NCBI GenBank assembly: GCA_037043015.1 | Contig: CM073322.1 | Location: 23,340,364-23,404,363, forward strand | Origin: Bryum argenteum | Taxonomy: Eukaryota; Streptophyta; Bryopsida; Bryales; Bryaceae | Direction: 5' to 3' | DNA length: 64,000 bases | Part shown: positions 20,096-64,000 of the stretch, in pieces | Position numbering within the stretch: position 1 is the first letter of the stretch | Layout: every line of letters starts with the position of its first letter | Translations under genes and position numbers: made by a program | Notes under the pieces: model-generated | Seen by the model: only the letters and a program-made list of their open reading frames with translations | Told to the model about the DNA's origin: nothing | Database searches by the model: none

Positions 20096-20829
20096 CTTCA
20101 CTAATAGAAAAGGGTGTCAATTCTGACTAGTCGCGAATGACTATGGTGTCAATTCTGACTCTGACTAGTCAAATGCGTATTCAGATCGGAAAAACTTAGT
20201 CAGCTAAAGGGGGAGTAAAACTTTAAGTCATATTTTAGTCATATTTTAGTCATATTTGTAGTCATACGACTATTTGGAGTCAAAATTTTTAGGCACCTCG
20301 ATGATTTTACGGTTGGGGAACGCCGAGAACGTGGTTATTTATGACCGGGTAGGCATATGACTAGAGTAGTCATCGTCTTGACTAAGGTTTCGGGCAACAA
20401 TATGACTACGCATGATTTTCTTGTAGTCATTTGACTACCACAATGGTTTTTTTATTTTGGTTCCGACCACTCATAAGACTAATTTCGTGATTACACTAAA
20501 TTCCTACTTGTCTTATGACTACTGTAGTCATCCCTTAGTCACCACATCCGTATGTTTTATTTCGTTTCCTACCATTGTATATACTAATTTACTATGTACA
20601 CTATATTCACACATCCCTTATGACTATCATAGTCATAACTTAGTCATCAGAGTAGTTTTATAATAAGTGGTTTCAACCACCCATAAGACTAATTTAGTGT
20701 CTACACTAAATTCCCACCTGCCTTATGACTGCTGTAGTCAGAATTTAGTCAAAGGCAAATTTTTTTAATTCTGTTTTCGACCACTCCTAAGACTAATTTC
20801 TTTCCTACACTAAATTCCTACCTGCCTTA

Positions 20830-21600
20830 TGACTGTCGTAGTCAGGACTTAGTCAAAAGGCAGTTAGTTTTTTTTATTTCAATTATTTTCATCTCCGCTA
20901 ATAAGACTAATTTCTTGTCTACACTAAATTCCTACCTGCCTTATGACTGTCGTAGTCAGAACTTAGTCAAAAGGCAGTTAGTTTTTTTTATTTCAATTAT
21001 TTTCATCTCCGCTAATAAGACTAATTTCTTGTCTACACTAAATTCCTACCTGCCTTATGACTGTCGTAGTCAGAACTTAGTCAAAAGGTAGTTAGTTTTT
21101 TTTTTTTTTTTTTTTTTTTAATTTTTTCATCTCCGCTAATAAGACTAATTTCTTGTCTACACTAAATTCCTACCTGCCTTATGACTGTCGTAGTCAGAAC
21201 TTAGTCAAAAGGTAGTTAGTTTTTTTTTTTTTTTTTTTTTTTTTTTTCATCTCCGCTAATAAGACTAATTTCTTGTCTACACTAAATTCCTACCTGCCTT
21301 ATGACTGTCGTAGTCAGAACTTAGTCAAAAGGTAGTTAGTTTTTTTTTTTTTTTTTTTTAATTTTTTCATCCCCGCTAATAAGACTAATTTCTTGTCTAC
21401 ACTAAATTCCTACCTGCCTTTCGACTGTTGTAGTCAGAACTTAGTCAAAAGGCAATTAGTTTTTTTTTTGTTTTTAAATTTTTTTTCATCTCCGCTAAGA
21501 AAAACTAATTTATTGTCTACACTAAATTCCTACCTGTCTTATGACTACGGTACTCATAATTTAGTCAACCCAAGGGTTTTTTTATGCAGTCACTGGTTCA
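20830..21600. repeat. About 120-bp tandem repeat with internal T tracts in the CACTA left end
   Basis: Six units begin near 20890, 21004, 21128, 21248, 21368 and 21487, each reading CATCTCCGCTAATAAGAC, then CTACACTAAATTCCTACCTG, then a TATGACTG-CGTAGTCAGAAC motif pair, then a T tract. The spacing varies (114-124 bp) largely through T-tract length (about 8 to 27). Divergent earlier units start around 20470, 20690 and 20770. Each unit holds an inverted pair of the TAGTCA motif. Confidence 0.9.
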
Positions 21601-22838: not shown

Positions 22839-25545
22839 TCATCTTTTGCACGATAACCTGTACAGAATTGTTTCCGTACTGTGAGCGCAAGTTCCATGCA
22901 GTTCCAAGAGAGGATTTGGTGCATACTCTCTGTAGTCTACGATGATTTCAGCGTTGTTCATCACAAAATCATGGATCCATTGCTGCAGTTCTGAAGAGAG
23001 TAAGCGCCGTCTCCCGTTCCCCTCTAGAACTTCATCATTCATAGTAGGCTCCTCTTTGTCGTCCCACACACGCCGTGTCGTCATGCTCCAATTCTTCATG
23101 TACTCCGTACAGAATCCGAGCGTCTCTTCCATGATATACCCTCGTGCCATCGAGCCCTCCGGTTTCGCTCGTTGCCGTACATATCCCTTTAAGGTTTTGA
23201 GATATCGTTCCACGGGGTACATCCAACGTGTATGCATCGGGCCACAAATGGCTAATTGTTGCACTAGGTGGATTGGAAGATGTGACATGACATCGAAAAA
23301 TGACGGTGGAAATACTTTTTCCATCATGCACATGGTCACAGCTGTTTCCTCCACCAAATCGGACATTGTTGACGGATCTACAGACTTCTCGCATAGTCGC
23401 ACAAACACCCTGCATATCCGAATGATGGCTGCCCGAACGTCTTTTGTTAGTAATGTCCGGAGATACAAAGGGAGGACCTGTTGCATCATGATGTGGTAGT
23501 CATGTGACTTAAGCCCACGAAGGTCTCCATCAGGGGTGATCCTCTTCGATAACTGTCCTACGTAATGGCTGGGAGTCTTTAAGTTCCGGATAGTGTTGAT
23601 GAATGTCGCCTTTTCCACCTTCGTAAGAACGTAAGGAGCAGCCGGTAGTACAATGGTATCACTCCCGACGTGTTGAGGGTGCAGTTCGGGGCGTATATTG
23701 GCCTCCTTCATGTCTAGACGGACTTTGAGTGTGTCTTTCAATCCCCATATTGTCCTCATGATGTTTTCGCAGAGATTCTTTTCGCAGTGCATGGGATCCA
23801 GCACATGCCTGATTATGAGAGTCTGCGATGAAGAACACATCCTACGTCAGAACATAACTAATATTACTAACATGCGTTCTCCGCATATGACTGCTGTTAG
23901 TCGTATGGTCTCAATGTATGACTACTGTTAGTCACGATCTATCAGTACATGACAACAGGTAGTCGTTGTGTTCTCAAAATCTGACTACCCTACGAAAAAA
24001 CATTTTCATATCATGAGTAACAACAGAAACGTGGTTTACAGTATAAGCATGCTTACTTGCCAATATGGAAGATTGTAAAGAACTGATAGCCTCTTCACTC
24101 GGCTCTGGTGCACTGGATCACTCTCCCCTCCTTCTCTATTTTCATCACTGGCTGCTAGCCACCTCTGCCTAGCTTTAGCATGGCGCACAATATCTCGTCC
24201 ATTCAGAGACCTTGGGAGTGCTCTTATTTCCTCCGTGCCATCAAATGCTCTTCTCAGTCGCCGATACGGATGATTCCTCTGCAAGTACCTCCGATGTCCG
24301 AGGTAAACATTCTTTCCCAGTGAAGCTGATCGACGAGTACTAACGTTAGGGCCGCATTCAAGACAGCCTTTGTACCCCTTTGTCACTTGCCCGGAAACAA
24401 GACCGTATGCTGGGTAATCGTGGATGCACCACATCAACATTGCTCTGAGTGTGAAATTGGTGTTGTGACTGTCGGCGGAGACATCCATGGCATTTACACC
24501 CTCCCAAAGTTGTTGCAGCTCTTCGATAAGAGGGGCCAGATACACATCTATATTCGATGACGTCACACTCTCCTTCCCTGGAATGAGGAAAGCAAGCATC
24601 ATAAACTTTAGTGACAGAGAAAACCTCCGGCTTTAAGAAAATTGCTAATGTTTGTCCACTGCTTTAAGAACAAGTGTAACATTCGTCCTGCTGTGTTATA
24701 ATCCTACTGCGGCTGGTCTTGTTATTTCTAGATATAACTAATGTTGGGGAACTTAAATCACAGTATAACTACTTTCAGTCATGGTCTTTCAGGAAATGAC
24801 ATTTTGTCGTCACTCTAGTTTCAGGGTATGACCAACTATTAGTCACTGTCATTCTAGATATGACTAATTGTAGGCATATGTTTCAAGAGTACGACTAATG
24901 TAAATCAATTGACTTCACCATACGTCTAACTGCAGAAATGTGAATAACAGCGTGGTCGGAGTGACATGACAACTATTTACCTGGGATGAGGAGAGCTAGC
25001 ATTAGAAAGAACCGTTTCGTTACTAGCCAAGGAGGTAGGTTGTAATTTAATAGTATCACTGGCCACGTTGGGTGGCTGAGTGACTGGTTTGAAAAAGGAT
25101 TCACTCCATCTGTGGCCAGAGCTAATCGTACATTCCTCTCGTCAGCTGCGAATTCCGGATATAAAGCGTTGATGTGTTTCCAAGCTTTTGAGTCCGGTAC
25201 ACACTCCATATTGCCATGTATGTCTTTCCGTGTTGTGTGCCACTTGTTCAACTCTGCTATCTCCTTACATCGATACATTCGCAGTAGTCGGGCTATAAGT
25301 GGGAAGTGCCTCAAAATCTTCACCGGCCGCCCACTATTCTCTGATGCGTATCGCTGTTGTCTACATAGTGGGCACGTCAACGCCTCGGCCAAGTCCCCTC
25401 GGAACAAACAACAACCGTTTCGGCAAGCATGGATTAGCTTGTAATTCAACCCTAGTGTCCGTATGAGTTTATTCCCTTTCAAGTGCGATTTGGGAAGTCC
25501 TGCCCCATGACGAGAAGGGTACAGCAGTGGTAATGAGGTTTGCAT
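22839..25545 (-). CDS. TNP2-type CACTA transposase
   Basis: Three exons, 25545-24981, 24577-24057 and 23822-22839, join in frame to 689 residues. Family hallmarks in order: KLIHACRNGCCLF and a CxxC pair (TCPLCR), LRHFPLIARLLRMY, WKHINALYPEFAADERNVRL-type block, ALATDGVNPFSNQSLSHPTW, LLIPGKESVTSSNIDVYL, VTKGYKGCLECG, then IIRHVLDPMHCEKNLCENI and, in the DUF4218 part, PPSFFDVMSHLPIHLV, GPMHTRWMYPVERYLKTLK and TLGFCTEY. Related proteins have about 200 further N-terminal residues before LPKS; these are not visible upstream of 25545, so the 5' end may be truncated or in another exon. The first intron has matching exon-like sequence at both of its ends. It cuts and pastes the element by binding its subterminal motifs. 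Confidence 0.9.
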
Positions 25546-25812
25546 TTGTCAAACGTCATGTGCGACTCTGGAATGTGATGGTCTCTACTCTCTAGTCATG
25601 TTTTGAGATGGTATGACTATCTTTAGTCATCGTCCGTGCTTGTCTAATGATATGTAATCACGTTTGTATGGAATGCAGGCAGACGGGCAAAAAGAGGAAG
25701 CTCCATCACAGCCGTCAGGTGCAGTCAGACGTCGATTTTGAGTCAAAAAACCCGGTCAGAATTGACACCCTTTTCTAGTAGTGCTTGCAGGGGGATGTTT
25801 CCATGACAGTTT

Positions 25813-42932: not shown

Positions 42933-43220
42933 GGTAAGTAGTTGCTTCTTAATTCGATGGAATTGACAGTATCGTTATGATTGATGCACATTCTGAGAGA
43001 TACTCCATTTACTGTTTCCAAAGAGAATTTCTTGAAATGCTGTCAAATAGAGAGCATGCAAGGCATGCTAGAGTTTACCTCGCTCTGTTTCGAATGTGGA
43101 TATCCATGGTAGATACTGCATCTCCTTTGTAGCTCCAATTATCACCTTCGCAGCCAGAGTGTAGATGATCAAGGTACCTGCACACCCCCCCAAACCCCCT
43201 CCGATGCTGAAGTCAGAACC

Positions 43221-44699
43221 ATGGTCATATGTGAGAGAAAAAATCTTGACATGAACATGTATATTTCTGCAGATAGCACGAGTTCGCAGTCCTCTCAACA
43301 GAGAAGGGCTCCTGCTAGGGTGCCGAGGAGGGCTAGAGGAGCAGATGAAGAGGCCGGGACCTCAGGTAAGAAAGAAAGGGATCCCAACTGGACGAAAACA
43401 GAGATTTTAGCTCTTATAGAAGCAAAAAGAAAGGAATATATCGATGAGATGACTGTAGAGGACGTGAGAGACTTGATGTGCCCTGAAATTGGCAAGTGGG
43501 GTAAAATCGCTATGATTCTGAATGCCACGAAGGGAGAGGGTGATGTAGACAGAGATAGCATGGCTTGCAAATACAAATGGAACACTTTGCTATCTGATTT
43601 TAAGAAGATATGGGACTTTCATTGTAGAACAGGGAGGAACTCAGAGGATTATTTCAAAGAGACAACCCCGGAAGAGAAGAAAAATCATAAGCTCCCCAAG
43701 ACCTTCTACCTCTCGGCATATCGCAATATGGCTGAGTGGTTGCGTGACAAGGCCACCATGAATCCCCCGCACGCGAGGGATACAATGGATCCCCACGATG
43801 GAAACTATGCATCACAGATGTCACATGATAATCCCATCGGAAGTAGATTTTTAGATAGCATGCCAGAGCAAGGGTGGGCAGCAGGTGGGGGTAGGCCGGC
43901 CTCGCACATCGACTTAACAGCTGAGGACTCCTCAGCTGTGTCATCGGCACATACTGTGCACTCAATGACCGGCCATCAGGTGGGGGGACTTTTCCATGAC
44001 GCACCTCCCCACACTACATCTGCCGCAGGTGTGGGTAGAGACCCTCTGCAGCCCCGCAGCCCCCGTAGAATGGTCCAAGATATGGACCTGAATGGACCCC
44101 CTGCCCCCGGAGGAACCCCGCAACAACAATCCCCAACCCCGAATCCCCCCACGGCCCCCCCTCTAGCACGGGCTGGGATGGCGAGTTCCGGGCATGCTGC
44201 CTCCATCCCTGCCGTGTCTAGGCAGGGACGTGGGAGTGTGGAGATCCATCTCCTGTCGTCAACTGCCACCTCCGGAGCCGCGGACCTGAAGAGGGCAATG
44301 GGCAGTACTGGCCACAGGCGTAAGAGAGGAGCAGATACATCGGGCATTGCAGATGGTGTCACAAAGAGTGCGGAGAAGATGGTGAAGGTGCTTAGCGAGA
44401 TTAATGAAACTCAAAGGTCATCAGAGAAGGAGAAACTGGAGGTACATTCTAAGCATTTTCAGCAGAGCCTTGAATACAAAAAGGAGAGGGATAGGGTGAA
44501 TATGGAGAACGTCAGAATTTCACAAGAACATACACGGCTTGGGCTGATGAACCAGCAGATGGTTGTCACAGCCATCGTGAACCTGGCCTCCGCCATTTCA
44601 CGGACCGTGGCACCATCGAAGGCACCTACACCAGACCCGAATGCTACACCGACTGAACCCCAAGAACCCCCCCCCCCCCAACTAACAACGCCACCGTAA
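43221..44699 (+). CDS. PIF/Harbinger transposon Myb/SANT-like DNA-binding protein (ORF1)
   Basis: The frame encodes up to 492 residues. After an Arg-rich start, DPNWTKTEILALIEAKRKEY begins a trihelix/Myb-like domain with the spaced aromatic residues expected (WTKTE, KWGKIA, CKYKWNTLLSDFKKIWDF), continuing to YRNMAEWLRDKA. A long Pro/Gly/Thr-rich linker follows, then a charged helical segment (KEKLEVHSKHFQQSLEYKKERDRV) of coiled-coil character, quoted here without break at 20 residues or fewer as EKLEVHSKHFQQSLEYKK. In this superfamily the Myb-like protein binds the transposon ends and brings in the transposase. It faces the transposase gene at 45165-46499. The true coding start may be a spliced junction at 43271 rather than the ATG at 43221. 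Confidence 0.85.
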   Translation: MVICERKNLDMNMYISADSTSSQSSQQRRAPARVPRRARGADEEAGTSGKKERDPNWTKTEILALIEAKRKEYIDEMTVEDVRDLMCPEIGKWGKIAMILNATKGEGDVDRDSMACKYKWNTLLSDFKKIWDFHCRTGRNSEDYFKETTPEEKKNHKLPKTFYLSAYRNMAEWLRDKATMNPPHARDTMDPHDGNYASQMSHDNPIGSRFLDSMPEQGWAAGGGRPASHIDLTAEDSSAVSSAHTVHSMTGHQVGGLFHDAPPHTTSAAGVGRDPLQPRSPRRMVQDMDLNGPPAPGGTPQQQSPTPNPPTAPPLARAGMASSGHAASIPAVSRQGRGSVEIHLLSSTATSGAADLKRAMGSTGHRRKRGADTSGIADGVTKSAEKMVKVLSEINETQRSSEKEKLEVHSKHFQQSLEYKKERDRVNMENVRISQEHTRLGLMNQQMVVTAIVNLASAISRTVAPSKAPTPDPNATPTEPQEPPPPQLTTPP

Positions 44700-45164
44700 A
44701 CCTGCACATGAAAAGGAGTTGTTAGAAACCATGGCAAATGCAACTCCATATTGCATTCTAGTTCTAGTAGAAGTCACTGTAGTTTCAGTGTTTATTTTCC
44801 CACTCACCTCTCTTTGTTTTTCTGCCCCCGAGACCTTCTGCTCCGACTGGTACCTGTTTGTTGACACTCCAACACAGCAGTAGTATATCAGTTACAAATG
44901 ACTGTAGTACTTCGTTAGTACGAGCCGTGGTGGCTCAAAAAAAAAAAAAAACGCTATGTTCCTCATCTCTAACATTCTATGTTATCTCTCTTACATGTAA
45001 TAAAGCCATGGTGACAACCACATTAAGGTGCACATGTGCACCTAAACATGTGCACTAGCAACGTACCTTGCGGCCACTGTTTCCCTTGCATTGTATCCCG
45101 CCCTCCCACCTCTTCAGTGTCCAAGCAACGTCGCAGCCAGAAGCCCCGGTCTGGCCCTTTCAGA

Positions 45165-46499
45165 TTACGCCCTCACCTGGGCAAGGAAAGCGGCCAACTG
45201 CCCCCGTTTCCGATTGCCCCCGACCTCATCGTTAGGAGGACCGTCCTCACCAGGGAGCTCTTCCTCGGGGTCCTCGTCAACGACGGGTCTCATGCCCTCC
45301 CGCTGCAGGATTTCCAACAGCCGATCGACCTCCTCGGTGCTCTGGCCGAGCAAGAGGTTGTGTAGTATGCAGCAGCATACTACTACATCCGGAAGTAGAG
45401 TAACATGAAGGTCAGACGCCGAGTGGAGCTCCCGGAAGGACATTTTTAAAATTCCGAATGCATTCTCGACGACCGACCTCGCCCGTGACAGTTTCCTGTT
45501 AAACAAAGTCTCCTGAACCGAGCGTCTTCCCCCAGGCACTTCCCGGTAGGGGGTGATGAGCCATGGGAATATGGGGTAGCCCTTATCCCCTACCAGATAA
45601 GGGACAAAGCCATCTATAGCATCCGCAGTATTAAACAAATTTGTTGTAGTGGCACGTTGGTACAGCATGGAACGTCTGAGCTGCCTTGCGTCATTCATCG
45701 AACCGGGCATTCCGACAGAGATGTCTATGAATTTTCGATCCCGGTCGACTACTGCTTGACACTGCATTGTATAACCACCTGACTTGAAATAGAAGTAGTC
45801 CTCTGGACTATCATTTGGCTTGCGGATATGGAAGTGGGTGCCATCAATGGCCCCCACTATCCCTGGCAAACCTGAAAATTCTCGAAATTGAGCCATATTG
45901 AGGTGGAGCTTGTGACCCGTGGGCCACGAAATCTCCCCCTTGAGCTCATCGTTCACGGCCCGTACAACATCGCGAATAATCCCTGAAGCCGTGCTTGTGC
46001 CAATGGCAAAGAACTCTGAACAGAGAAGTAGACTCGCCCCCTGGCATAGTTTAAATAACGTGCAAGCAACTCTCACAATGGGGGGGATCGCCAATCTATA
46101 TCTCGTGTACTGCCGTTCAATGTGCGGCCTGAGGAGGTTGGTGAGACTAAAGACAGACGCCTTTGTCAAGCGAAAGTTTTCTATCCAGCGTAGGTCATCG
46201 TACTCTTGAAGTACAAATCTAGAAAACCACGATGTGGACCGGGGCAAAACCCACCAGCTAAGCTCCTGCTCTAGTAATGTCGTTGCATGTGCGATTCTGA
46301 AATCGTGCAAGACTGACCCGACTATGGAGTTCATGTTAACCAGGGTGGAATGAACCTCCCCGATTTGGACTGTATTGTCACCCTCATCCGGCGGGACATC
46401 CTCGGGGGGGCGGAACATATTATCAACTACATTTTGTAACAACAACACCAGCGAGGGGAGGAAAAAAGCAACATTCCCTGGGTCTAGCCGCTGGTCCAT
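45165..46499 (-). CDS. PIF/Harbinger transposase (DDE_Tnp_4 type)
   Basis: A single open frame of 444 residues carries the catalytic triad of the family. The first Asp is in IVGAIDGTHFHIRKP, the second in VGMPGSMNDARQLRRS, and the Glu in RARSVVENAFGILK; LVGDKGYPIFPWLITPYR and CCILHNLLLG are the other conserved blocks. A helix-turn-helix-like stretch (FRLTKASVFSLTNLLRPHI) precedes the catalytic core. There are no stops or frameshifts, so the enzyme could be active. It sits convergent with the Myb-like gene, a common Harbinger layout. I could not fix the terminal repeats or the TTA/TAA target duplication. Confidence 0.93.
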   Translation of the reverse strand: MDQRLDPGNVAFFLPSLVLLLQNVVDNMFRPPEDVPPDEGDNTVQIGEVHSTLVNMNSIVGSVLHDFRIAHATTLLEQELSWWVLPRSTSWFSRFVLQEYDDLRWIENFRLTKASVFSLTNLLRPHIERQYTRYRLAIPPIVRVACTLFKLCQGASLLLCSEFFAIGTSTASGIIRDVVRAVNDELKGEISWPTGHKLHLNMAQFREFSGLPGIVGAIDGTHFHIRKPNDSPEDYFYFKSGGYTMQCQAVVDRDRKFIDISVGMPGSMNDARQLRRSMLYQRATTTNLFNTADAIDGFVPYLVGDKGYPIFPWLITPYREVPGGRRSVQETLFNRKLSRARSVVENAFGILKMSFRELHSASDLHVTLLPDVVVCCCILHNLLLGQSTEEVDRLLEILQREGMRPVVDEDPEEELPGEDGPPNDEVGGNRKRGQLAAFLAQVRA

Positions 46500-48472
46500 T
46501 GATAAGCGATCACCGAAGACACTCTACTGAAAACGCTGAATTCTAATATTACGACTCAGCTGCAACACACAGTGAGGGCTCTAATCGGGAATTCACCGGT
46601 ACTAATTCACAAGGACCCGCCCTCTTGAAGACACCAAGACATAGAGAACTTACATGCTTCCCTCCGGAGAATGAGACGATATCGGAACCCTAATTTGAAA
46701 GGAAAGCGATCGCACAATGTCGCTCACCCAGGATTGACGCAGCATGAACCTGCGCAGTTGAAGAAACGCCCATTCAGGAGTTAGAAGAAAACAAAATTTA
46801 CATTCACGTATTCTTCAAAATGAACAAGAAGAGCGCAGAGATGGGAGTGTTACCTGAATGCGCAGTTCCGAATCCAATCGCACGAAACCTAGGAGGCGGA
46901 TAGCTGGGCAATACCGCAACACAAGCCGGAATCACACTGATAATAAACAACCGATCCCCTTGACACAGGCATGCAACGACTCCGGGTGAGCGAAACAGAA
47001 GTACAACGATGCGTGATAACAACCACGAAGCAGCCGGGAATGGGATTCCAATACAGCACCCAAATGGAGCTAGAGGAAAATGAAGAACTACAAAGCACAA
47101 GGACTGCGTGAATGGCAAAAGTGTTCGTTGCGAGAGAGAAGGGACGAAGTTCAGAGGAGACGCTGCCCGGGAGTTCGACTGTGCTGCCCCAGGCCCTCTC
47201 CAAGACTGCCCAAGTGCCCGCGTCAAAAGTTTCCACACTGTCACTTCAGTGCCACCCGGTAATTTCTATTCCGTCAAATCCGGTGTCCTCATGAGTGGTA
47301 GCGTCGTGGTACAGGCCCCCCATGATGTGAACACCATCCTCCATACCTCCGTCACCTCGGAGGTGGCCGATCCAAAAAAACATGAACCCCCTCAGCTCCG
47401 TGTGAACTCATTCGGGATATTACGAACCCTGTGCAGTTAGGACGTAGACAAGCAGAAATCCTTACCTCCATGTGTAAAGGGGGTAATAGTATCCCCCCAA
47501 AGGGCTTTGAGGTACCCATACAACAAGGTCCAAGGACTTTCCACAATAGTTGGGTGAACTACAGTGGTGAGCACCACGCCGGCATGGGGAATAGAACCCA
47601 CAACCTCCTCATTGGGGGCCTAAGCCCTAACCACCAAGCCAAGGCTTGTGGTGCCTAAGGGGAAGGGACTTCCATATCGGATGTTTATCATCAAAGATGG
47701 GGACTAGTGAGACTCGAGTTGCTATCGTAGAAAATTTACTCCATCCAACCCATATATACCCTTACATACAATTTGGAACTCTCTTCTTCAATTTTTTTAA
47801 AAAATTCAGACTTATCAGAAAATAACTCTACATTATCATTATTATTCTTTTATTTTTTATTATATTTTTTTCACAATCTTTTTTCGCAAGAAGATAAAAA
47901 GAGAAAACACCATTTGATGTAGGAACTGGTCAGCAATACGGAAACAAGGTGAACGAGCGCCGCATTCCCATGCGACGAAAACCATCCTCGAAGTACGAAA
48001 TCTGGGGGTTCGTAGATGATATTCATTCAAACCCTCCCGATAGTCCGATGGCGTCTCCTCCAAACCTTTCACTGCTTGCCGACCTCCATTTGTTTTTTTC
48101 TGTTGTCATGTCAAATTTCGATCGTGAGGCTCATTTTCCAGCAACGATCGGGTCCCTCACCACCAGAATCACAGAATCCGGATATTTCCCTTCCCTGATC
48201 AACTCTAACATCAGCCTGTTGGTGGATCAGTCGCAAAGTCGGCGGGTCATTTGACAGTCGGTGTTCCATTTCTCGATCCTTTGTGATAGGTTTCACTGAA
48301 TTGCTGGTTCCAATTTTTCTGGGGAGTTTCGTTTTTTCGTATTTTGTATCATTTGGCCGTTTTTAGGTCTGGTGAATGGGAGCTTTGGGTTGGAGAGATT
48401 AGGTCTGCCCATGTCATGAGAGGGCAACCGTGAAGTAGAGATTAAGAATTTGTTGAGCTGTCTGGAGCTGCA
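46500..48472. other. Harbinger right flank, SINE-like repeat and Mo25 leader
   Basis: The first 700 bases are probably the transposase promoter and right end of the Harbinger element. A SINE-like repeat covers 47440-47657. From about 47900 the DNA leads into the Mo25 gene, with a pyrimidine-rich leader; no TATA box stands out. Confidence 0.5.
47440..47657 (-). mobile_element. tRNA-derived SINE-like element
   Basis: Read on the minus strand, an A-box-like TGGCTTGGTGG and a B-box-like GGTTCTATTCC lie about 40 bp apart near the head, the internal RNA polymerase III promoter of tRNA-derived SINEs. The body includes CCCCCTTTACACATGGAGGT, which recurs on the plus strand at about 42350. The tail border is unclear. 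Confidence 0.6.
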
Positions 48473-49504
48473 ATGTCGTTCTCTTTCTTTAAGCAGTTGA
48501 AGCCGAAGACACCAGCGGAGCTGGTGCGGCAGGTGAAAGACTCGCTCTCGGCGCTGGACACGAAGACGATGGGCGACACTCGGCTTCTTGAGAAGTCTTT
48601 GGAGGAGGTCGACAAGAACATCAAAGCGATGAAGGATCTCCTTCTTGGAGACAGCGACACGGAGCCTAACACGGAAGTGGTGGTGGAAGTAGTGCAAGAA
48701 GCCTGCAAGATCGATGTCCTGGAGCTCATCGTGCAAAAGATACCGACTCTGGACTGGGAAGCGCGGAAGGACTGCGTGCACATTTGGAGCTCAGTGCTGC
48801 GTCAAAAAGTGAACAATATCCATTGCGGCCTCGAGTATCTCGAAAGCCACACGGAGCTTCTGGATTACCTCGTTCTCTGCTATGAGAATAAGGAAGTGGC
48901 GATGAATTGCGGTTGCATGCTCCGCGAGTGCGCTCGATATCCTTCATTAGCGAAGTACATGCTGGAGTCCGTGAGCTTCGAGATGTTCTTCAAGTTCGTG
49001 GAGACTCCAAACTTTGATGTTGCTTCCGATGCTTTTGCCACGTTCAAGGAGCTTCTCACCAGACACAACGCAGTGGTCGTGGCCTACTTGACATCTCGCT
49101 ACGCTTCTTTCTTCACGAATTTCGATAAACTGCTTCGATCGGCAAACTATGTAACCAGACGGCAATCTCTGAAGCTTCTTAGTGATATTTTGCTGAAGCG
49201 CTCAAACTCTGCTATCATGATGCTGTACATTTCTGATGTCCGGAACTTGCGAGTGATGATGACGTTGATTATTGATCCCAGTAAGAATATCCAGGCCTCG
49301 GCTTTTCATGTGTTCAAAGTGTTCGTTGCAAATCCACAAAAGCCACCGCAGATTGTTAACATACTGGCCAAGAACCGGGAGAAGCTGCTCAAGTTTCTTG
49401 ACAACTTTCACATTGACAAAGAAGACGAGCAGTTTGAAGAGGAGAAGGAGCTGTTGGTGAAGGAGATTGAGGGATTGACGTCCTCCACGCCTCGGATTCG
49501 TTGA
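48473..49504 (+). CDS. Mo25/CAB39-like scaffold protein, intronless
   Basis: One uninterrupted frame of 343 residues matches Mo25 along its whole length (human CAB39 has 341). It opens MSFSFFKQLKPKTPAELVRQ, with FFK..KTPxELV the family start, and contains YLESHTELLDYLVLCYENKEVAMNCG, ILRECARYPSLAKYM-type MLRECARYPSLAKYML, FKELLTRHNAVVVAYL, NYVTRRQSLKLLSDILL and NIQASAFHVFKVFVANP (quoted in parts). Mo25 is an ARM-like helical scaffold that activates Ste20-type kinases; in plants it belongs with the MOB1/SIK1 polarity and division module. Every other sizeable host gene in the window is split into several exons, so the lack of introns stands out. The codon use is regular and no poly(A) remnant is clear. 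Confidence 0.97.
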   Translation: MSFSFFKQLKPKTPAELVRQVKDSLSALDTKTMGDTRLLEKSLEEVDKNIKAMKDLLLGDSDTEPNTEVVVEVVQEACKIDVLELIVQKIPTLDWEARKDCVHIWSSVLRQKVNNIHCGLEYLESHTELLDYLVLCYENKEVAMNCGCMLRECARYPSLAKYMLESVSFEMFFKFVETPNFDVASDAFATFKELLTRHNAVVVAYLTSRYASFFTNFDKLLRSANYVTRRQSLKLLSDILLKRSNSAIMMLYISDVRNLRVMMTLIIDPSKNIQASAFHVFKVFVANPQKPPQIVNILAKNREKLLKFLDNFHIDKEDEQFEEEKELLVKEIEGLTSSTPRIR

Positions 49505-52445: not shown

Positions 52446-54039
52446 ATGGCAAAGGGAGGGTCTAGTGAAGATAATGTTCAACGTCAAGCCATATGGATTG
52501 AGCGCAAGTCAAAAATTCGAAAGGCACCAAGTATAGGACCAACTATGACTTGGAGGCGACGCACTCCACGCCATACACCACGCAAGAAGGACTTCAATAT
52601 GATGAACACTGACAATCTGGAGAAGACACCATATAAGATTGTGGAACCTAAAGTAGATGATCCATTTTGTATGGCGTCATCAACAGGCTACTCGTCCGAT
52701 TCCTTTGAGCGTGATGAGGAACAATTTATGAAAGATTTAGAACAACAAAGAACTCCACGGAAGATTTTGAACAATAAGTTGATGGCATTGGAAAACTCAT
52801 CACTTCCTAGTACGAAAACAAGCTCCTTCGTATTTCAGAAGCGCCTTGCAAGAATTGATTGGAGAGCTGTACATGCTATTGATGTTGATCGATTAGTTTG
52901 TGAAGTTGGTTTGGTTACACAACCTCTATATATAGAAAAATTCATTACTTCCATATTTTTGTCTATATTATCGCATAATTTCATTTCATAGCTTATCAAT
53001 GTAGGAAATGTTGTTAAAAATATTATATTTTATATTGAGCATTTTCTTTATGTGTTTGCCAGATATTGACACATTGGAAACCGTATTGGATACTATTACT
53101 TTTGGCGATGTACAAGGAGAGGATACACGTAACTTCACAGAAGCAAACTTTGTCAAACTTTTTCGCCTTGCACAATTAATGGTAATCTCTATGGATTACA
53201 TAGAGCAAAGTCCTTTTGTGTGTGAGTTATTAATTAACTTACAATTACGCACTAAATTTTTTCATCATCTCTATACTTATATTGTATAACAATCATCACT
53301 TAATATTGTCTTAAAATTGAGCTCAATCTTATGTGATAACCAACATTTCTTGCAATTTGAGATGTTTAACCAAACTTAGATGATATTCATATCATGGTTC
53401 TCAATAAAGTTGGATATGAACATCAACTTTAAGAAATGTGGGTGTGTAGGTGGAATATTTACTTCATGTACAAGACTTATTAGCCGGACATAAGCTTGAA
53501 CTACTTCATGCTACAACAACAGTGCAACAAAAGTGTGAAAAGATTCAAGCACGTTTCTTATGGCAGAAGAACATCTTAATGCAAACACGTCATGAATTGA
53601 AACAATTAAAGAAGGTTTAAGTACGCTCCTTATTGGTGTATTTCTCTATTACCGTACCTGCATGGCAATTTCGGCAGAAATTGAGTCCTATTTTTAGGTG
53701 CTAAAAATATGGGATTTTTTTAAAAAATAGAAAAAACATATTTGTACTCAATAAAACTAGAATCGTGAAGAAAATAGGTTTGCCAAACTCAGGAAGACAA
53801 AATTACTCAATTATTTAGCACTAGAGTGCCGAAATGGCCATGCGAGTATGGTACTTCAAACACTCCTCACCACATGAAATTCTTGTTGTATTCTTTTGCA
53901 TTGCAACATTGATGATTAACATGTATGGAGTTGCAGACTTCGAAAACATATGAATCTCTATTAAGAGCTCAAGGAGCGCAAGCCAAGACCCAAGTCGCTC
54001 AAATTGCACAACCACAAGTAAGCATGCACCTTATCGTTT

Positions 54040-54133
<94 letters not shown>

Positions 54134-57100
54134 AACTCCGATCTTCAAATAAAAGATTGGCGTGAATACAGCGTCTGTTCGTAATGTCTTTACCGCGATG
54201 GCCATAGGACAAAAAGGTAAAAGAATTATTGTTTTGAATACAATATGTAACCCCTAAAGATCCATAAAACCCAAAACGAGTTTTAAGGATTCCCGCACAA
54301 ACAAAATTCAACCAACTTTGACCGTTATAATTTCGCAAATTAAGAAGAGTCGACAGCAAGCGAGTAGTATGTCAAGTTAACTTTAAGATCCTATGGTTGA
54401 ATATTTTAAATAATGCTTAGATTGAGATGTTTCTGATTTTGAAGTAGAAGGAGGTCATTTTTTGTAATTCACGCAATTTTGCACAAACTAAAGGATCTTT
54501 TAGGGTTAATTTGATCACATCCATTTTCAATTATATGTACAATAAATTGATCAATAAATCTTTTGTTCTATTGAAGGTTCGACATTGCCCATTTTGCGAA
54601 AAGGTTTTTGAGTCCTCCTATTATCTTGTAAGTGTCTCACTTTGACATTATGGTTCCAAAAGGTTGGATATATGATCAAGTGGAAAACCTTCCTAATGCA
54701 AAAAATGAAATTGTGCAGGATTTGCACGTATCAAGAAGACATCCAAAAACAGGGGAAGTGATTGAAGATAAAATTGTGGCGGCAGTTTCCAAAGCTGAAG
54801 AAGTTAATGCAGCACGAGTAATATCACTATCATTACAACAAATTTAAGGTTTTATGATCATGGGCGTAATCATATTGTCCAGAGCGATTAAGAGTAAATG
54901 AATGAAATTGGTAGTCATTTTACAGCCATGTTATGATAGTTTCTAGTCACAACACATATTACGAGTATTTTTAATGACATCTATCTACGAATCGTCAAAA
55001 CATGGCTATCAATAGTCATATTTACTCTTAGTCGCTCCAGACAACATGACTACAACTAAAATCATAAAACCTTAAATCTCTTGTACTGTATTCTTGCTAA
55101 ATTTGATTTTTAATGACAATGTTCCCAATCAAGATGATAAAGAAAACTTGACTTTTATTGTTAATCTACACTAAAAAACAGGTGAAGGCTGAGACAAGCG
55201 TGACCGTTCAAACAGAGATTCAACAACTTCGTGAAACATACCAGGTTATTCATCTCCACAATTGGAGAAGTAACTTCCTCCCCACTCCCTAATATCCTCT
55301 AGTTCCCATGTCCAACTGGTTTTTCATGAAACTATTACAGCAACTGCCTCATTATGATCATATTATGCTCAGAATTGCACATTTCTCGTAATTGTCATCG
55401 GGTTTTCTTTTCCCAAAACTTTTCTACTTCATTCAGAAATTCTCAAAATCAACCAACCAACTTGTAACTAAATGCCAATACTCCCCGTTTGTTCATTCAT
55501 CATCTCTATGTGCAAAGTGTATAAATTTTGGACTATTAGTTCTTTATTGCTCATTCTATTAAAGTCATTGAATGGCAGGCAGATTTGCAAAGAGCAGAAC
55601 TTGCTTCCACTACACAGGTGCGCCAACATACTTGTAATAAAATGATTAATTTTGGTTTTAAGTTATTATTCTAGTTTCTTTATGATGATAACTTAATACA
55701 AAATCAGCTATTTTTTATTTCTCCTTTTCATGGTATTTTTTGATTAGTTGTAAAATTAGTGTACCCACATATTTATTTGATTTTGTAGGTTCATTCATTG
55801 CAAGCAGAATTGCAACGAAGCAATAATCAATTGCATGAAGTACAAACTCGACTTGAAATCCTGCAGGCCCAAATGTTCTCCGGTGCACCAAATGTATGCA
55901 TTTTCAGTATGTCTTGGTCTTGTATACTATAACAGATTCAAGGTTTTATGACTATGGGCGTAATCATATTGTTCGGAGTGACTAAGAGTAAATGATTGAA
56001 AATATGGCTATCTTACAGTCATGTTATGATAGTTTGTGGTCACATATTACTTGTTATGATTGTTTGTAATAACATGTGATTACCAAACAATCAAAGCATG
56101 GTTATAAACATGACTACCAATAGTAATCATTGTTTTAGTCATTTATCCTTGACTGCTTCGAGCAATATGACTACGCCCATAGTCATAAAACCTTGAATTT
56201 GTTGATTGAAAATATGGTTGTTTGTAATCATCTTACGATCATGACTGATATGATAGTTCCTGGTCACACATGACATGTTAGGATATGTTGGAAAGTTCAT
56301 TTCCTCTAAACATCTACTTTTCAATGAGTATTTGATAGAAGTATTCATTTTATTTTTTTTGTGGTGCTTGTGTTTTTGTGTTCATCATGTCAAGTAGTTT
56401 TCTTCAAATTCGGTTTTTGGAAGTATGTATGCTTTGGAGAAGTCTAAGGAAAAGACCAACAATCCTGATCAAGAGGTGTGGTGATCTATAAAAAATTGGA
56501 TTTCATGCATAGATAGAAACTCCAGTTCCTTTCTAAGGGACTGGATTGAATGGACACACATGCATAGTTAGTTGGTGAAAGTGTAGTAGTTAATTTTGGA
56601 ATGGGTTATGTTTTTTTTGTCAGAGATTATATGAGTTAGAAAGCAAGTTCAACAATTTGGAGCAACAAGTGAAAACATTGGGTCAAGTAATTTCACAAAA
56701 CCAATGCACTTAATTAATTCCCTTTATTTTGGTGTTATGCAAACCTATTCTACTACTTTAGCATATTAAAGGTTTATGGAAAGACTAATTATCATGATAT
56801 AGCTTGTAGTAATTTGTTTCATTTGTATTTTGATAGGAAAACTCTAGACTACTAAAGGAGCTAAATGTAGCACATGCTGAAGTGAGATTCATTGAATATA
56901 AGTCTTTTATTGATGACAATTGGTTAATAACAAAATGGTAATCTTAATTTGTGACTTTGTTTGGATAAATTTCTAAAATCTCTCATCGATCAAATATACA
57001 CATGGGCTCACATAATTGGTTTTTAGGTTTCAGATTTGCAATCCACAAAGCAACACAATATACTTACGTTGGAGAATGAGGTAGTCAAGCTTAAATTTCT

Positions 57101-60100
57101 TGAATTATGGTTGCACACGTAAAGGGAGAGTGCTCAATAATGGCTCAAATTTCAGCTTTCCTTGTTTGTAGTGAAGTAAACAGTAAGCAATTTCAGTGCA
57201 CAGGAAAGTGAATAGAAGTATAGTCAAAGTAAATTCATCATTTTTGAACTCTTCTGTAGTTTGCTATGAATTTTTAAAGACAGTCTCATAGGATGGTGCC
57301 CTAATTCTGCACCCTATAATGTTTGTCCTACTAATGAGTGAAGAAACTATTATGTACCTGTGGGTGAAGAAGCCTAGTGCTCCATTATTGATACCGCTCC
57401 AGTTTTGAGCACTCTCCCTTAGTTATCATTCTAAGCTTTGACATAGAGTATATATTTCTCTTCCTTTATCACACAACAATACAGATTAGAATGAACTCAT
57501 TTTATCACTATGTACCAGTCTCTGGAATGTCTTAACAAATTCAATGCAGGTAGAGGATTTGCGCAAACAAAATCAACATCTCAGTTGGTCAATTTCCAAG
57601 GTAAAAAAAAGAAGAAGTGCAGATTACATACATTGATCCTTCAAATGGTTACAAGTGGGCACAGTAACACTTAGCTTGCAATGCCCATTCAGGCTGAAGA
57701 AAAACCAGTGCAGAGGGGTCCATCTCCGAAAGAGCAGATGATGAGAAAACTGGAGAAAGATGAAACACTTATGGCACTTGCTTGCCCTACTACACCTGCA
57801 CCAGACAGACGAAGAGCAGAACCAATCTACAATGAGCCAAATGGTGAAGAATCATCATCATCGGCATCTCCTGAGGAAGATCACTACAACAACAACAACA
57901 AACAGTCCAGTTTTAGACAAACCTCTCATCTTGAGGAAGATCATTATAAGCAGTCTACTCTCAAACGAACACCATCATCTCTTGAACCGAAAGTTGAATC
58001 TTCTCCCGTGAGACCCAGAATCTCTTCGCTGAAGAAGCCCAAATCAGCAGCTGTCAAACAGGCAAACACACTCTACATTTGTGTTGTCAAGATTTTCAAT
58101 GAAAGCATCACTCTGATATTTTGGTATACTCGTGCAGCTGCAGAGCAAGTCGAGAGATGATTGTGAGAGCCCAACCTCAGCTGAGGAGATGCGAGCGAAG
58201 TTGGAGAGAGAAATGGCTGCTGCGCATGCTGAGCAGAAAAGGTGTGCGAGCTTCTGTATATCTCGACGAATTGCTTGTTGCTTCTGTTTATCCATTCTTG
58301 CTTTCTTTTAAATGTTCTCTCTTCAGAAGTCACAATGATCTTGAAACACAGGCGTCAAAAAGCTGTTCAAAGGCTTGTAGCGAAGGAGCTTGAGCGAGAG
58401 AAACTTGAAGAAAAGAAGAAGGAAATTCGAATCAAAAGCGAGGAGTTACGAAACCGCAAGCCTGCAACTCACTTTTCTCGTCACCCTCCTAAGTCAGAAA
58501 CAACATACGAAAGCGTAAGTATCTCGCTCCTCATAAGGAGGCATTCCTTTTTGAAAGCCTCCACATTCTGATGATTAAGAGTCTCAGAGACCCTCGTAAG
58601 AAAGCACCCATCAGTTTCCTGTATGTCTCCACATTCTGATGATTATAACAGACTCAGAGACCCGATGGCGACGGATCATGCATGGAGGTTTTGACATGGT
58701 TTGTGAGTGAGGGTTTAAGAAATGAGTCGTAACCCCAGATAGGGACTTAGCAGGCTTAAGGAATGAGTCGTACTCTGGTAGCTCACAGGTAGCTCCTCTG
58801 GCACAAGCAATGCGAACAAAGGAGGTTGTGCTTGTGGCCAAAGGAGGAGGAGAAACTGTTGACAACGATCGAACACGAGTTGTTGTTCATTCGAGGTCTG
58901 GCTCAGATCAGACCTTGCATTTCCAACCTGGCTCGGGATTCAAAGGAACCCGACCATACTTGCGAAATCCTCGGCCTCAAACTTCTCTACTCAATCGCCA
59001 ACTTCCCATTTCGAAATTGCTAAAACCGCTTCCTAAGGCTCAAGCACTTGCAAAGCTCGTAGTGAAAAAAGCTACCACGGTGCAATTTGCTGTGCCACCA
59101 GAACCCCCCAAGCCTGAAAGCGAACCCCAGGTTTTTCTTGGGCCTCAATCCTTTCATCGCGTGGAGCTTTAATTCTTCCTGCATTTGGTGTTCATTCAAA
59201 GAATGGGTTACCACATACATCCAGTTGGAGCTTCGATCTTTCTGCTTGTGCATGTTGGAAGGTTGTTCACTCCCTAATGATACTTCTATCTTATGCTTCA
59301 ACTTGTGTTGTGTGCAGGAGGAAGAAGTTGAGAAACGTACTACATCGCAAGAAGATGAGAAGGTGAGGTCCAGTTTCTCTAACCTAATGAGCATCAACGA
59401 CACGACGCTCTCATGCTAACAAGCATATTGTCATTAGGCTCAAAGGATCCAAGAAATTGCTGAGGTTGCGGCCATGGATGTTGGAGAAGAAGCGCCGACA
59501 ATCCCCATTCCCGAGAAGCAGAAATGGTTGACTGAGCACCCTTTTGTGCCCATTCCCGCCTTGTAAGCTCCCTGACCAACCATCCTGTCCGAGCATCGAC
59601 CATTGCAGAGTCTGATGAAAAAAATTCATCGCCATTGCAGGCCACATGTGGTGGCGAAATATCCACATCCCGAGACAGCGTTCGAAAAAGCGCACAAAAC
59701 GCTCGAAAATGTATGCATCTTCCCTACTCCAATACTTCTAATCAGACGATCATTCACTTCGATCTTATCATGCGACGGTTCATTCTACTACTGATCCACA
59801 TTCTCACTTGTTCCGTGAAGGAATTCAATGGTCAACTTCGTGAGGAGCTGAAGAAATTTGGAATTGCTTCAAGCACAAATGGCATTAGGTACCTCTGAAA
59901 CTGCCTGCCTGCTCTGAAACTTCTTTAGATTCATTGGGGCTTAGTTGGGTATGGCGTATATGTCTGCAGTGATACGACATACAACTCAATATCGACGGCA
60001 CTGGAAAAGCAGAGATCGCTGCGAATGTCGCAAATTCATGGTAATGAGCGGAAGCTCGTGGAATATGAGCGAGGAGCTATTGTCTGGCATACCCAAGTAA

Positions 60101-61705
60101 GCAATTCTTTTCTTGATTGTATACAAACATGCAACCCTAAATCTTGACTACGATGTTAAGCTCGATCGTGGGGTTGTTACAGAGGGCTGTTCACGATCGT
60201 GACATGGAAATCATTGAGTCGCAATTTGATGTTGACTCGGGATCCGATCCCTTGGGCGATGACACTATTCTAACAGACGACAGCGGGGACGAGGTATGTG
60301 CAACATGATCATGTGTATCTTGTTTTGAAATGTCAATTGGGTTCTGAGATTTTGCTGTTGGAAAATCGAGCAGTCTGGTCGGAGCAACTACAATTCAACT
60401 CGAAGTCATCAATCCCACAAAAGCGACTTCGATTCGGACGATGACTCTAAAGAAGACGAGGATGAAGTGGAAACTGCTGCGAACGCTCACATGAAAACGA
60501 GCGATCATAGTAGTCCCCGAAGCAGTGAGATGGGTGAGAGCAGCGACGATTTGCAAGAGCCCGAGGAGGTTGTTAGCGGGGCCAAGCAATCATCGAAAGC
60601 GGAAGACAGAGAGCCGAGCAATTCACCCAATGGACGTATGAAATATGCATCCAGGTGAGTTTCTGGAGTGATTCGAGAGCATTGATCCTCTTACTTGATG
60701 CTGAGTCATATTGGAAAACTATCGATATATGTGCTAATTCATGTTGGAAACTGGTTGTTAGAGCGTTGCCGTGGAAGCACAAGCAAGCGCCGATCTCTCA
60801 CTTTCCATCCCGCCCACCCGCAAAAGCGAATGTGCACATCGTTGAAAATTCTCGGCAATCCGAAGAAGTCGAGGAGGAACTTGGATTGGGCGATTGGGAC
60901 AGCGATGAGGACACCGCAGTTCCCGTAAGGGGAAAACAAAGGTACATGCGCATACTGGCCATTTCACCAGAGGCAAAATGCTACTCTCTTTTCTCTTCTG
61001 AAAAAGCCACAATGAATCCCTTGCAGCATCCACTTCTGTACTGTTCATCAACTTCCTTCGATTCCCCTCGATACCCTTGCGTCAACTAAAACTCCTGAAT
61101 ACTCTTCTCTTGTCAATTTTACATGAAGACAATGTATTCTGTCATGCTTTCATCAAACAGCTTCTTCCTGCTTTTGCCGATATTGATTATCATGTGCTTG
61201 CTGCAGGCGAGTCCAAATTGATGATCGCCAGCCTGTTTCTGCATCACAAGGTAAAGCTTCGTGCGCCATTGTTTTTGATGCTTGACTTTCGCAGTATTCA
61301 TGAGAGAGCTGGAGTTTGCAGATTCTCCGATTCGGGACTTGTCACCGCCCAAGGAGTTGTTGGATCTGCAGCAACTGAAGTCGAGCATGGCCTACAAACC
61401 AACCCCGCCACCGAGCAGTCCCAAGTCGTCCAGTGCGGAAACTACATTTCGTGTCCAGAAACCAATTCCGCCTCCTCTTGAGCCACTTGAGAGGGACGAT
61501 TCCATGTACGTGCTAAACTCTCGAAGTATTTTGCAGTGAGATCTTTGCTGCTATGTCCGATATCATTCTGATCAGAGTCATACGATGTGGGGGTGCCAGA
61601 GCAAATGATGGTGTGGAGAATGAGGAGTCTGACGGGAGCGATGTCGAGGAAAACAAAATCTTCAAGGAGTTGACATCTGAGATAGATGAGATTATCAGTT
61701 TGTAA
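52446..61705 (+). CDS. DZIP1/DZIP1L-like ciliary basal-body zinc-finger protein, 29 exons
   Basis: Exons: 52446-52908, 53063-53181, 53450-53614, 53937-54017, 54577-54627, 54719-54817, 55182-55244, 55579-55617, 55789-55893, 56398-56475, 56624-56686, 56837-56881, 57027-57080, 57550-57600, 57693-58061, 58138-58241, 58352-58514, 58789-59130, 59318-59362, 59438-59562, 59641-59710, 59821-59888, 59970-60096, 60183-60293, 60374-60654, 60762-60941, 61207-61250, 61295-61505, 61600-61705. All phases agree: 1,273 residues. The Dzip-like N-domain (about 130-249) reads [58 protein letters not shown]2H2 finger follows, split by an intron: C280, C283, H296, H301 (HCPFCEKVF...DLHVSRRHP). Then come Gln/Glu-rich coiled-coil segments (to about 500) and a long acidic, Ser/Pro-rich tail. 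Animal DZIP1 acts at the basal body and transition zone in cilium assembly. The intron after 58061 seems to use a GC donor. Confidence 0.92.
54042..54130. repeat. (TA)n microsatellite, about 89 bp, in DZIP1 intron 4
   Basis: An uninterrupted TA run directly abuts a retroelement tail (AGAACTCCGATCTTC onward). By analogy with the GATA run at 42.16 kb it is probably the variable tail of that element. Confidence 0.95.
54131..54240 (-). repeat. Retroelement 3' tail, diverged copy in DZIP1 intron 4
   Basis: The plus strand reads AAGAACTCCGATCTTC, GATTGGCGTGAATACAGCGT, CTGTTCGTAATG, CGATGGCCATAGGACAA, matching in order the reverse-oriented copy at 42.16-42.29 kb (GGCGTGAATGAAGTGTCCGT, CGATGGCCACCGGACAA) with about a quarter of bases changed. 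Confidence 0.65.
54248..54509. mobile_element. MITE of the TTAACCCCTAAAGG family, copy 4, in DZIP1 intron 4
   Basis: The ends TAACCCCTAAAGATCC and GGATCTTTTAGGGTTAA are inverted repeats, and the interior aligns with copy 1 at 806-1072 over nearly its full length (262 against 267 bp). It lies only 67 bp upstream of the zinc-finger exon. Confidence 0.7.
54846..55075. mobile_element. MITE with AAGGTTTTATGA ends, copy A, in DZIP1 intron 6
   Basis: The left end TAAGGTTTTATGATCATGGG and the right end ACTAAAATCATAAAACCTTA are inverted repeats that extend inward with mismatches through GGCGTAATCATATTGTC. About 230 bp, non-coding. A second copy lies in intron 9. Confidence 0.8.
55937..56197. mobile_element. 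MITE with AAGGTTTTATGA ends, copy B, in DZIP1 intron 9
   Basis: TTCAAGGTTTTATGACTATG pairs with CATAGTCATAAAACCTTGAA as a perfect 20-bp inverted repeat that continues through GGGCGTA. The interior shares GACTAAGAGTAAATGA and TTATGATAGTTT with copy A. Confidence 0.88.
56504..56567 (-). mobile_element. Severely 5'-truncated retroelement insertion with 9-bp target duplication, DZIP1 intron 10
   Basis: A 46-bp piece (56513-56558), ATAGAAACTCCAGTTCCTTT and onward, matches the last 46 bases of the retroelement tail family in reverse orientation. CATGCATAG flanks it on both sides (56504-56512, 56559-56567), a target duplication of the length made by target-primed reverse transcription. Only the 3' tip was copied. 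Confidence 0.75.
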
Positions 61706-62825
61706 TAGGAACTGGTGAGTTGAGATTAATCCTTTTGGGGAAACTGGCATGGCCAATTTTTTCCTATGGAGAGTGGTGAAAGTCCAAAATCTCAGTTTTA
61801 CTTGATGTATTTGACCAAATGTCGAGTCTTTCTCTGCTGATTAAGAGGCTTCTTACACTTGATATGATGACAAGATTTAACGAAGAATCATGGGTTCTTA
61901 AAGGAGTCCATAGCTCAAAAGATTGAAAGATTCTTTGCTTGAAAGTATTCAGAATGTGGATGGAAACCATTGTGTAGGTTGTGCATTCATGTCAAGAATT
62001 GGCAGTAAAATGTTTATGGGATTAAGTGTGTAATGTCTTTTATAAGTCACCGAAATATTTAGACATTCGTGGTAGATGTGTTTTACACATGAATATGCAA
62101 GATTTGCTTTTGGTGGTATAAGGTACTACATCTTAATGTGTTTGTACCATGCTCAAGAATTTTCTCCCTAGAGTGCCATGTGGAAAATCACACCGAGTCA
62201 TTTTACTTAGCATCAGTCTTCTAACTTTGGATCTTGTACACTCATGCTTTAGCACAACTGCAAACAAGATAACGAAGTATACAATAATAAAGGAATAGAT
62301 CGTGAATTATATGTACGCTCTTGGTATCTAAGATTCTACGTAATTGAGTTCAGTGGAGTTTTGCTGTGGAGCTTATGGCTCCCTTGCGTTGCCTACCTGC
62401 CTTGGCGTACATAGACTTTCTTGGGTAGGTTGAATCATTAGCTCAAACGGCGTGATATACTTTAAGCGTGACATTGAAATCGATATAGAGCATCATGCTC
62501 ATGGGTACATGAGCTTCAAGATCCACCTCGTACAGCTTCAAAGTTGATCACATTGATTAGCTGCTCTTTCATAGCACACTGCTTGATCCCATAACTTATT
62601 TCAGGTCTGTTCTCAGAATTTTGCCCTGGGTGGCTAAACCACATTGAATTCATAAAATTGACAGACGTGCCATATGCGGTCGAATCTGTGGCATGTACCA
62701 AAGTCCAACCCAGTGATGAGATTATTCACAACTTATTATTTACAGGTGCGAGAGGGAAGTGATGACTTGAAGGTCAAGAAGGAACGAGGCAAGCACCTCG
62801 CAAGCATTTGGGTTTAAGTCTGTTC
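61706..62825. other. Space between two convergent genes
   Basis: This 1.1 kb lies between the stop codons of the DZIP1-like gene and the PAR1-family gene and should hold both 3' untranslated regions. No further gene or repeat was recognised. Confidence 0.6.
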
Positions 62826-64000
62826 TCAGTGGAAGTAGGTCTCGTAGAGATACTCCTCGTCGTTAAGTTGCTGATGATCGGGCAAGAGATTCTCGGTCGA
62901 TTGCTGCTGCCAGAAATAATCATCAGAGCGTAGAGCGTACGATGGTTCAGAAGCCGGACCAGACCCCGAGCTCTCCGGTGGACTGACTGCTGGAACTGGA
63001 GTGATTGATGAGGAGGGGGAAGAAGATTGTTCAGCTGTGGAGGGAGGAGTGGCCGCAGGAGTGGGAGGGGGTGAGGCGACGAAGAAGGGGCGTTTGTTGG
63101 CAGGGATTGTGGGGATCTGGGTCACAGGGGCTGGAGGAGTAGTGCTGCTGCTGACAGGGAGAGCTGGAGGAGAAGTTGGCGTTAACGCTTCTCCACCCCC
63201 AACATAGCCACGATAATCAGGCCTTGTTGAGCTGCTATCGGTAGGAGGTGTGTCGGCCCCGCTTTGCGCTCCTACAGGAGCCATCGCCAGACTTGCAAGA
63301 AGCTGTTGGCTCCTCTCATACTCCGCGTCGCTGGCCTTCTTTACTGGATCCGCAATCACACGGCGGTAGCTCATCCTGTGAGTCTTGCATAGCTGTGGCA
63401 GGTATACTCCTGTACGCAAGCCCAGCCTCATTTAGTGTATTTGCATCCAAATTGAACGCCACTCTTGATAGGATTTTCCCCAATATCACAGAGAAGTGCT
63501 ACATATGAAGCAATACTCGAACTTAAAGCATCTGATTAAGCCTCAAAGATCCTGACGAATGCAACATCTGTAGGAAGTCACATTCGTGCCTTTTCCCGGG
63601 ACTGATATCCCTGAAGAGATTCCTGATATTGTCTTTTTTTACTCCATGTTGCTCTATAATGGAGATTGCTAGCTTGCATTGTGAAGTCATTCCGCCAGAG
63701 ACTTCACCCTGCTAGCTGAGGCAGGCACCCTCTTCTGCACACCCGGATGTTTGACTAAGATGAGCAGTGAAGAGGAAGAATTTGTACCTTCACCCGCAGC
63801 AAGACTGATGTAGAGATCGATCAAGTTGGGGCAGTTGTTGAGGCACTCCGAAGAGCAAAGCATCCCAGTGAAGCGGGAATCCATAAGGAGATCCGTGGAC
63901 AGACCAACGGACATGCGCTCCAGTCCACATGATTTTATGCACTCATCGGACTCAATCCACTCTTCTTGTTTCTCGGCCATTATGATTGATGACTGCATAA
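62826..64000 (-). CDS. PAR1-family protein with Pro/Ser/Thr-rich extension, 5' end outside the window
   Basis: Two exons are visible on the minus strand: one ending at 63788 that enters from the window edge, and 63409-62826. The join, g|GA, gives LAAGEGVYLPQLCK. EEWIESDECIKSCGLERMSV, STDLLMDSRFTGMLCSSEC and LNNCPNLIDLYISLAAGEG match the plant PAR1 (photoassimilate-responsive) family, including its Cys pattern. The signal peptide and first Cys residues expected in this secreted family are missing because the sequence ends at 64000; the Met codons at 63998 and 63977 are probably internal. After the PAR1 core about 150 residues rich in Pro, Ser and Thr follow, ending with an acidic, Tyr-rich tail (DEEYLYETYFH). 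Typical PAR1 proteins are near 180-200 residues, so this extension is unusual. The biochemical role of PAR1 is unknown. Confidence 0.85.

Follow-up and report, generated by a model that had tools for sequence, protein, structure and literature searches.

A gene of the DZIP1 type lies near the end of the stretch of DNA analysed here (64,000 nucleotides, hereafter the window), and we consider it quite likely that it represents the DZIP1/Iguana family in a land plant and is retained because the plant still builds sperm flagella. Membership in the family is supported by the predicted N-terminal domain and by the order of the domains that follow it, while the location, timing, partners and sperm-specific use of the plant protein, as well as the flagellated sperm of its host, are what we infer. 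The mere presence of such a gene is ordinary, the ciliary family being ancient and a further member of it expected; one worthwhile question is attached to it, namely whether DZIP1 may function without CEP290-type machinery in land plants. References given below as "in part" stand for the available portion of the source.

Gene model

The gene model, whose exon borders were set by eye from the sequence and then checked by script, is intact-looking (Table 1). Its 28 joined exons comprise 3,762 bases and encode 1,253 residues, with a lone stop codon at the very end, and the alternative frames of the same joined exons contain 45 and 96 stops. The gene that the initial annotation had placed at 52446-61705 is retained, on the plus strand, but its length of 1,273 residues is not, the new model being 20 residues shorter. 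Of its 27 introns, 26 are bounded by GT-AG and one (58062-58143) by GC-AG, and introns 2-14 are all in phase 0. When each splice site was scored in a leave-one-out manner against the unused GT/AG sites in the gene, 19 of the 27 donors and likewise 19 of the 27 acceptors scored above 90% of them (medians of 99% and 98%, respectively), a control that is partly circular because the sites had been hand-picked. Mid-range scores (50-54%) were obtained for the donors of introns 1, 16 and 21 and for the acceptors of introns 6 and 23. A single copy of AATAAA is present at 62286, approximately 580 bases 3' of the stop codon.

Table 1. Positions of the DZIP1-type gene, its exons and its predicted protein regions within the window
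Feature	Positions	Strand	Residues	Remarks
Whole DZIP1-type gene	52446..61705	+	1-1,253	start to stop codon, 28 exons, open joined frame
Dzip-like_N coding span	52827..53614	+	128-249	PF13815; end of exon 1 and exons 2, 3
Putative C2H2 finger coding span	54586..54742	+	280-301	split by intron 5; motif and sub-threshold zf-C2H2
Coiled-coil-like region coding span	55588..57764	+	351-490	heptad periodicity
Exon 1	52446..52908	+	1-154	first ATG past in-frame stop
Exon 2	53063..53181	+	155-194	
Exon 3	53450..53614	+	195-249	
Exon 4	53937..54017	+	250-276	
Exon 5	54577..54627	+	277-293	both finger cysteines
Exon 6	54719..54817	+	294-326	both finger histidines
Exon 7	55182..55244	+	327-347	
Exon 8	55579..55617	+	348-360	
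Exon 9	55789..55893	+	361-395	
Exon 10	56624..56686	+	396-416	
Exon 11	56837..56881	+	417-431	
Exon 12	57027..57080	+	432-449	
Exon 13	57550..57600	+	450-466	
Exon 14	57693..58061	+	467-589	Ser/Pro/Asp/Glu-rich linker
Intron 14	58062..58143	+		GC-AG; use of another in-frame acceptor (end at 58137) would give 2 extra residues
Exon 15	58144..58241	+		
Exon 16	58352..58514	+		
Exon 17	58789..59130	+		
Exon 18	59318..59362	+		
Exon 19	59438..59562	+		
Exon 20	59641..59710	+		
Exon 21	59821..59888	+		
Exon 22	59970..60096	+		
Exon 23	60183..60293	+	936-972	acidic stretch begins
Exon 24	60374..60654	+		acidic and serine-rich
Exon 25	60762..60941	+		
Exon 26	61207..61250	+		
Exon 27	61295..61505	+		
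Exon 28	61576..61705	+		includes stop codon

Several introns carry repetitive DNA. In intron 4, the dinucleotide AT is perfectly repeated for 44.5 copies (54042-54130), and introns 6 and 9 hold a related pair of MITE-like hairpins of approximately 260-280 bases (54831-55090 and 55923-56204), with terminal inverted repeats of about 70 bases that are approximately 80% complementary. The overall composition changes at about position 57600, from 33-35% GC with longer introns before it to approximately 46% GC with shorter introns after it.

Domain organization and family membership

The family assignment is supported by the N-terminal domain and by the domain order. A profile search of the joined exons aligned residues 128-249 with positions 1-115 of the 118 in Dzip-like_N (PF13815) at an E-value of 1.6e-28 and a score of 99.4 bits (cut-off 27.9), which bears out the Dzip-like N-domain of the initial annotation. 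Six other Pfam families appeared at E-values up to 1, all of them weak (0.14 to 0.56) and below their cut-offs. As a control, residues 128-248 were reversed; this sequence gave no Dzip-like_N match, its best hit being an unrelated model at an E-value of 0.013, below cut-off.

Thirty residues past this domain starts a putative C2H2 finger (residues 280-301) with C-x2-C-x12-H-x4-H spacing, the sole motif of this kind in the protein. Its zf-C2H2 score of 13.1 bits lies below the cut-off of 25.2, which may be compatible with a lone divergent finger. Further downstream, heptad-like hydrophobic periodicity (approximately 3.5 residues) was found within residues 351-490 in three of 34 windows (z of 3.6, 5.1 and 6.1), the remaining 31 giving z values of 2.5 or less; these values come from overlapping 70-residue windows with 300 shuffles each and not from a dedicated coiled-coil predictor. 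The periodic stretch thus fits a predicted coiled coil. Animal DZIP1 proteins are described in the initial annotation as having the order N-domain, one C2H2 finger and coiled coil. The same succession that had been proposed for this protein is seen in it, with a finger below the Pfam cut-off, and these three elements are what it has in common with animal DZIP1/DZIP1L (Iguana) and Drosophila Dzip1.

Searches outside Pfam were negative within their scope. Residues 128-471 matched no PDB sequence at E-values up to 0.01. When relatives of the N-domain plus finger (186 residues) were sought in viral and in bacterial/archaeal contigs, the 7 and 83 pattern-matching stretches, respectively, included none; this is as expected for a eukaryotic gene and is silent on plant orthologues.

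C-terminal part

The present protein, at 1,253 residues, is approximately 500 residues longer than fly DZIP1, constructs of which end at residue 737 (PMC7793253, in part), and it has a C-terminal part in which no Pfam family scores above cut-off. No Pfam match to this part was obtained at E-values up to 1 in the whole-protein scan, nor above cut-off when residues 467-676 and 791-972 were each scanned separately. The surplus had been ascribed to an acidic tail, and an acidic stretch does exist, mainly at residues 936-1060 (35 D+E and 12 K+R among 125 residues); however, the tail is not acidic throughout, and the additional length comes also from a Ser/Pro/Asp/Glu-rich linker at approximately 467-595 and from a mixed-charge middle region. 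Between these two lies a charged stretch (approximately 598-660); by eye it has a helical appearance, yet no heptad signal was obtained for it (z of 0.2 to 0.7).

Distribution of DZIP1

A 2025 survey, in which human centriolar-satellite proteins were used as BLASTP queries against 11 species, reports DZIP1 as one of six proteins that occur in nine of nine flagellated species, Chlamydomonas included, and in neither of the two non-flagellated ones, Arabidopsis and yeast (PMC12203921, in part). Since the gene is ancient and this survey extends to Chlamydomonas, most of the surprise is removed, and the initial description, in which the gene figures as one of animal type within a plant, overstates how unexpected it is. 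DZIP1 is an old eukaryotic ciliary gene and is therefore expected in a land plant with swimming sperm. As for the expectation that the gene accompanies flagella and is missing from seed plants with non-motile sperm, the absence from Arabidopsis agrees with it as one published data point (PMC12203921, in part). The Chlamydomonas homologue is a presumed green-lineage relative from a flagellated species (PMC12203921, in part). PF13815 also appears in an oomycete secretome table (PMC7217449), and DZIP1 is not named in PMC10425847. Among the papers listed by searches of the open-licence literature, none is a study of DZIP1 in a land plant, although subscription papers could include one, and its role in plants appears to be unstudied so far.

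Proposed role in sperm flagella

Animal DZIP1 is located at the basal body and transition zone, binds Rab8 and Chibby, starts cilia and is needed in sperm flagella. In the fly, it is recruited by CEP290 and acts upstream of CBY and Rab8, the latter being bound by its N-terminus (PMC7793253, in part); moreover, in male germ cells, Dzip1 together with Fam92 regulates how basal bodies grow and dock (PMC6904220, in part). Mammalian Dzip1, when phosphorylated by GSK3beta, promotes the release of Rab8 from GDI2 (PMC4393111, in part), and DZIP1L staining in a human atlas study was nuclear as well as ciliary (PMC3338421, in part).

By analogy with these systems, we propose that the plant DZIP1 would most likely occupy the distal end of basal bodies, which arise de novo in spermatids. 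Through its N-domain and coiled coil, it would there attach the basal body to the membrane and bring in Rab8-class (RabE) vesicles, so as to start the ciliary membrane and the transition zone in the manner of its animal counterpart. Basal bodies also form de novo in the fern Marsilea, and the sperm cilia that grow from them do so within extensions of the membrane (PMC4947347, in part); docking and membrane initiation are therefore plausible needs. The plant protein may require a recruiter other than CEP290, because non-seed land plants have been reported to be without MKS/NPHP proteins and CEP290 was not detected in them. Regulatory support for expression in sperm was not obtained, as the upstream region yielded no male-germline motif: neither a DUO1-like motif, the core of which is AACCG or its complement, nor a second set of male-germline patterns occurs within 1,500 bases 5' of the start codon.

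Alternative readings

A gene model of this length could fuse two genes, namely a DZIP1-like one formed by exons 1-13 and a separate one formed by exons 14-28, which we regard as quite unlikely. Such a fusion would account for the shift in GC content and intron length at approximately 57.6 kb, where exons of 40% GC with introns of 91-730 bases and 24-38% GC (exons 1-13) give way to exons of 49% GC with introns of 44-274 bases and 38-49% GC (exons 14-28), and for the finding that the Pfam scans provide no homology tying the latter half to DZIP1. Nevertheless, the frame remains open across the junction of exons 13 and 14, intron 13 has a donor in the 98th and an acceptor in the 97th percentile, introns 2-14 are uniformly in phase 0, and the heptad-periodic window at residues 421-490 crosses the junction, which falls at residue 467. 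Even two genes would be compatible with a retained flagellar DZIP1, as far as the part encoded by exons 1-13 is concerned.

The family assignment may also be right while the plant protein has been repurposed, with the help of its long acidic tail, for work on RNA or chromatin or for non-ciliary vesicle traffic. We consider this unlikely: the roughly 500 residues by which the protein exceeds fly DZIP1, its C-terminal part with no Pfam family above cut-off and the nuclear staining of human DZIP1L besides the ciliary one (PMC3338421, in part) would suit such a change, but the co-distribution of DZIP1 with flagella, including its absence from Arabidopsis, argues against a general role (PMC12203921, in part). 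Very improbable, in our view, is that the gene is a relic undergoing decay in a plant which has given up flagella. Nothing speaks for this directly; the introns carry the AT run of 44.5 copies and the pair of related hairpins, and against it stand 27 introns and 1,253 codons that the model accommodates with neither a frame break nor an early stop. We continue to favor a DZIP1 kept for the building of sperm flagella.

Possible action of DZIP1 without known transition-zone complexes

If the host of this DZIP1-type gene is a non-seed plant, it differs from animals in belonging to a lineage reported to be without MKS/NPHP proteins and in which CEP290 was not detected (PMC4092220, in part). Barker and colleagues state that, of the known proteins of transition-zone complexes for which they searched, including CEP290, Physcomitrella and Selaginella apparently have none, that the known MKS/NPHP proteins are missing from both, and that the non-seed land plants examined have no Y-links; they also caution that CEP290 is difficult to find by homology and that further homologues probably exist (PMC4092220, in part). 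DZIP1 does not occur in the main text of that paper. Such non-seed plants make working sperm flagella despite the missing gate proteins. Given this, the intact DZIP1 gene found here suggests that the docking and membrane role could run without MKS/NPHP/CEP290 machinery. If DZIP1 is indeed kept in land plants without its known recruiter, then its basic work is independent of that recruiter.

We put forward, tentatively and as something possible rather than probable, that DZIP1 in land-plant sperm works without CEP290, MKS/NPHP proteins and Y-links. On this proposal, basal-body docking and membrane initiation would be its oldest job, the link to CEP290 would be dispensable or lost, and a plant factor, perhaps bound by the acidic tail, would recruit it. 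Should non-seed plants keep DZIP1, its own action could be studied in them in isolation from the gate machinery, which makes such work in animals more complicated.

Genomic setting

That the window comes from a plant genome, as was claimed at the outset, is backed by two neighbors, a PAR1 gene reaching to the window edge (63690-63998, minus strand, E-value 9.9e-32) and a transposase (45168-46523, minus strand) with DDE_Tnp_4 and Plant_tran matches, the latter at an E-value of 4.9e-15; both point to a land-plant setting. PAR1 is not known from outside plants. The short introns speak against lineages with giant genomes, among them Ginkgo and most ferns, as far as a general expectation of this kind goes. 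The PAR1 region (62829-63998) includes a downstream piece with a long Ser/Pro-rich extension, and the piece at 62829-63431 is below cut-off (E-value 0.0097). The window further contains genes for mitochondrial ATP synthase gamma and for a mitochondrial carrier. Neither Rfam models, at their gathering thresholds, nor a tRNA search gave a hit anywhere in the window, and exact two-copy telomere-like repeats were absent from it.

Approximately 470 bases from the transposase lies a Myb/SANT-like frame on the plus strand whose Pfam match is below cut-off, the two together spanning 43113-46523 in what we take to be the arrangement of Harbinger-type elements. Further transposon remains, with Transposase_21 and DUF4218, occupy 22842-25548 on the minus strand and are presumably CACTA/En-Spm-like. 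The Mo25 coding sequence is complete in a single exon (48473-49504, Pfam Mo25 E-value 5.9e-129) and is perhaps a retrocopy. A tandem array with units of 114-120 bases extends from 20583 to 21568.
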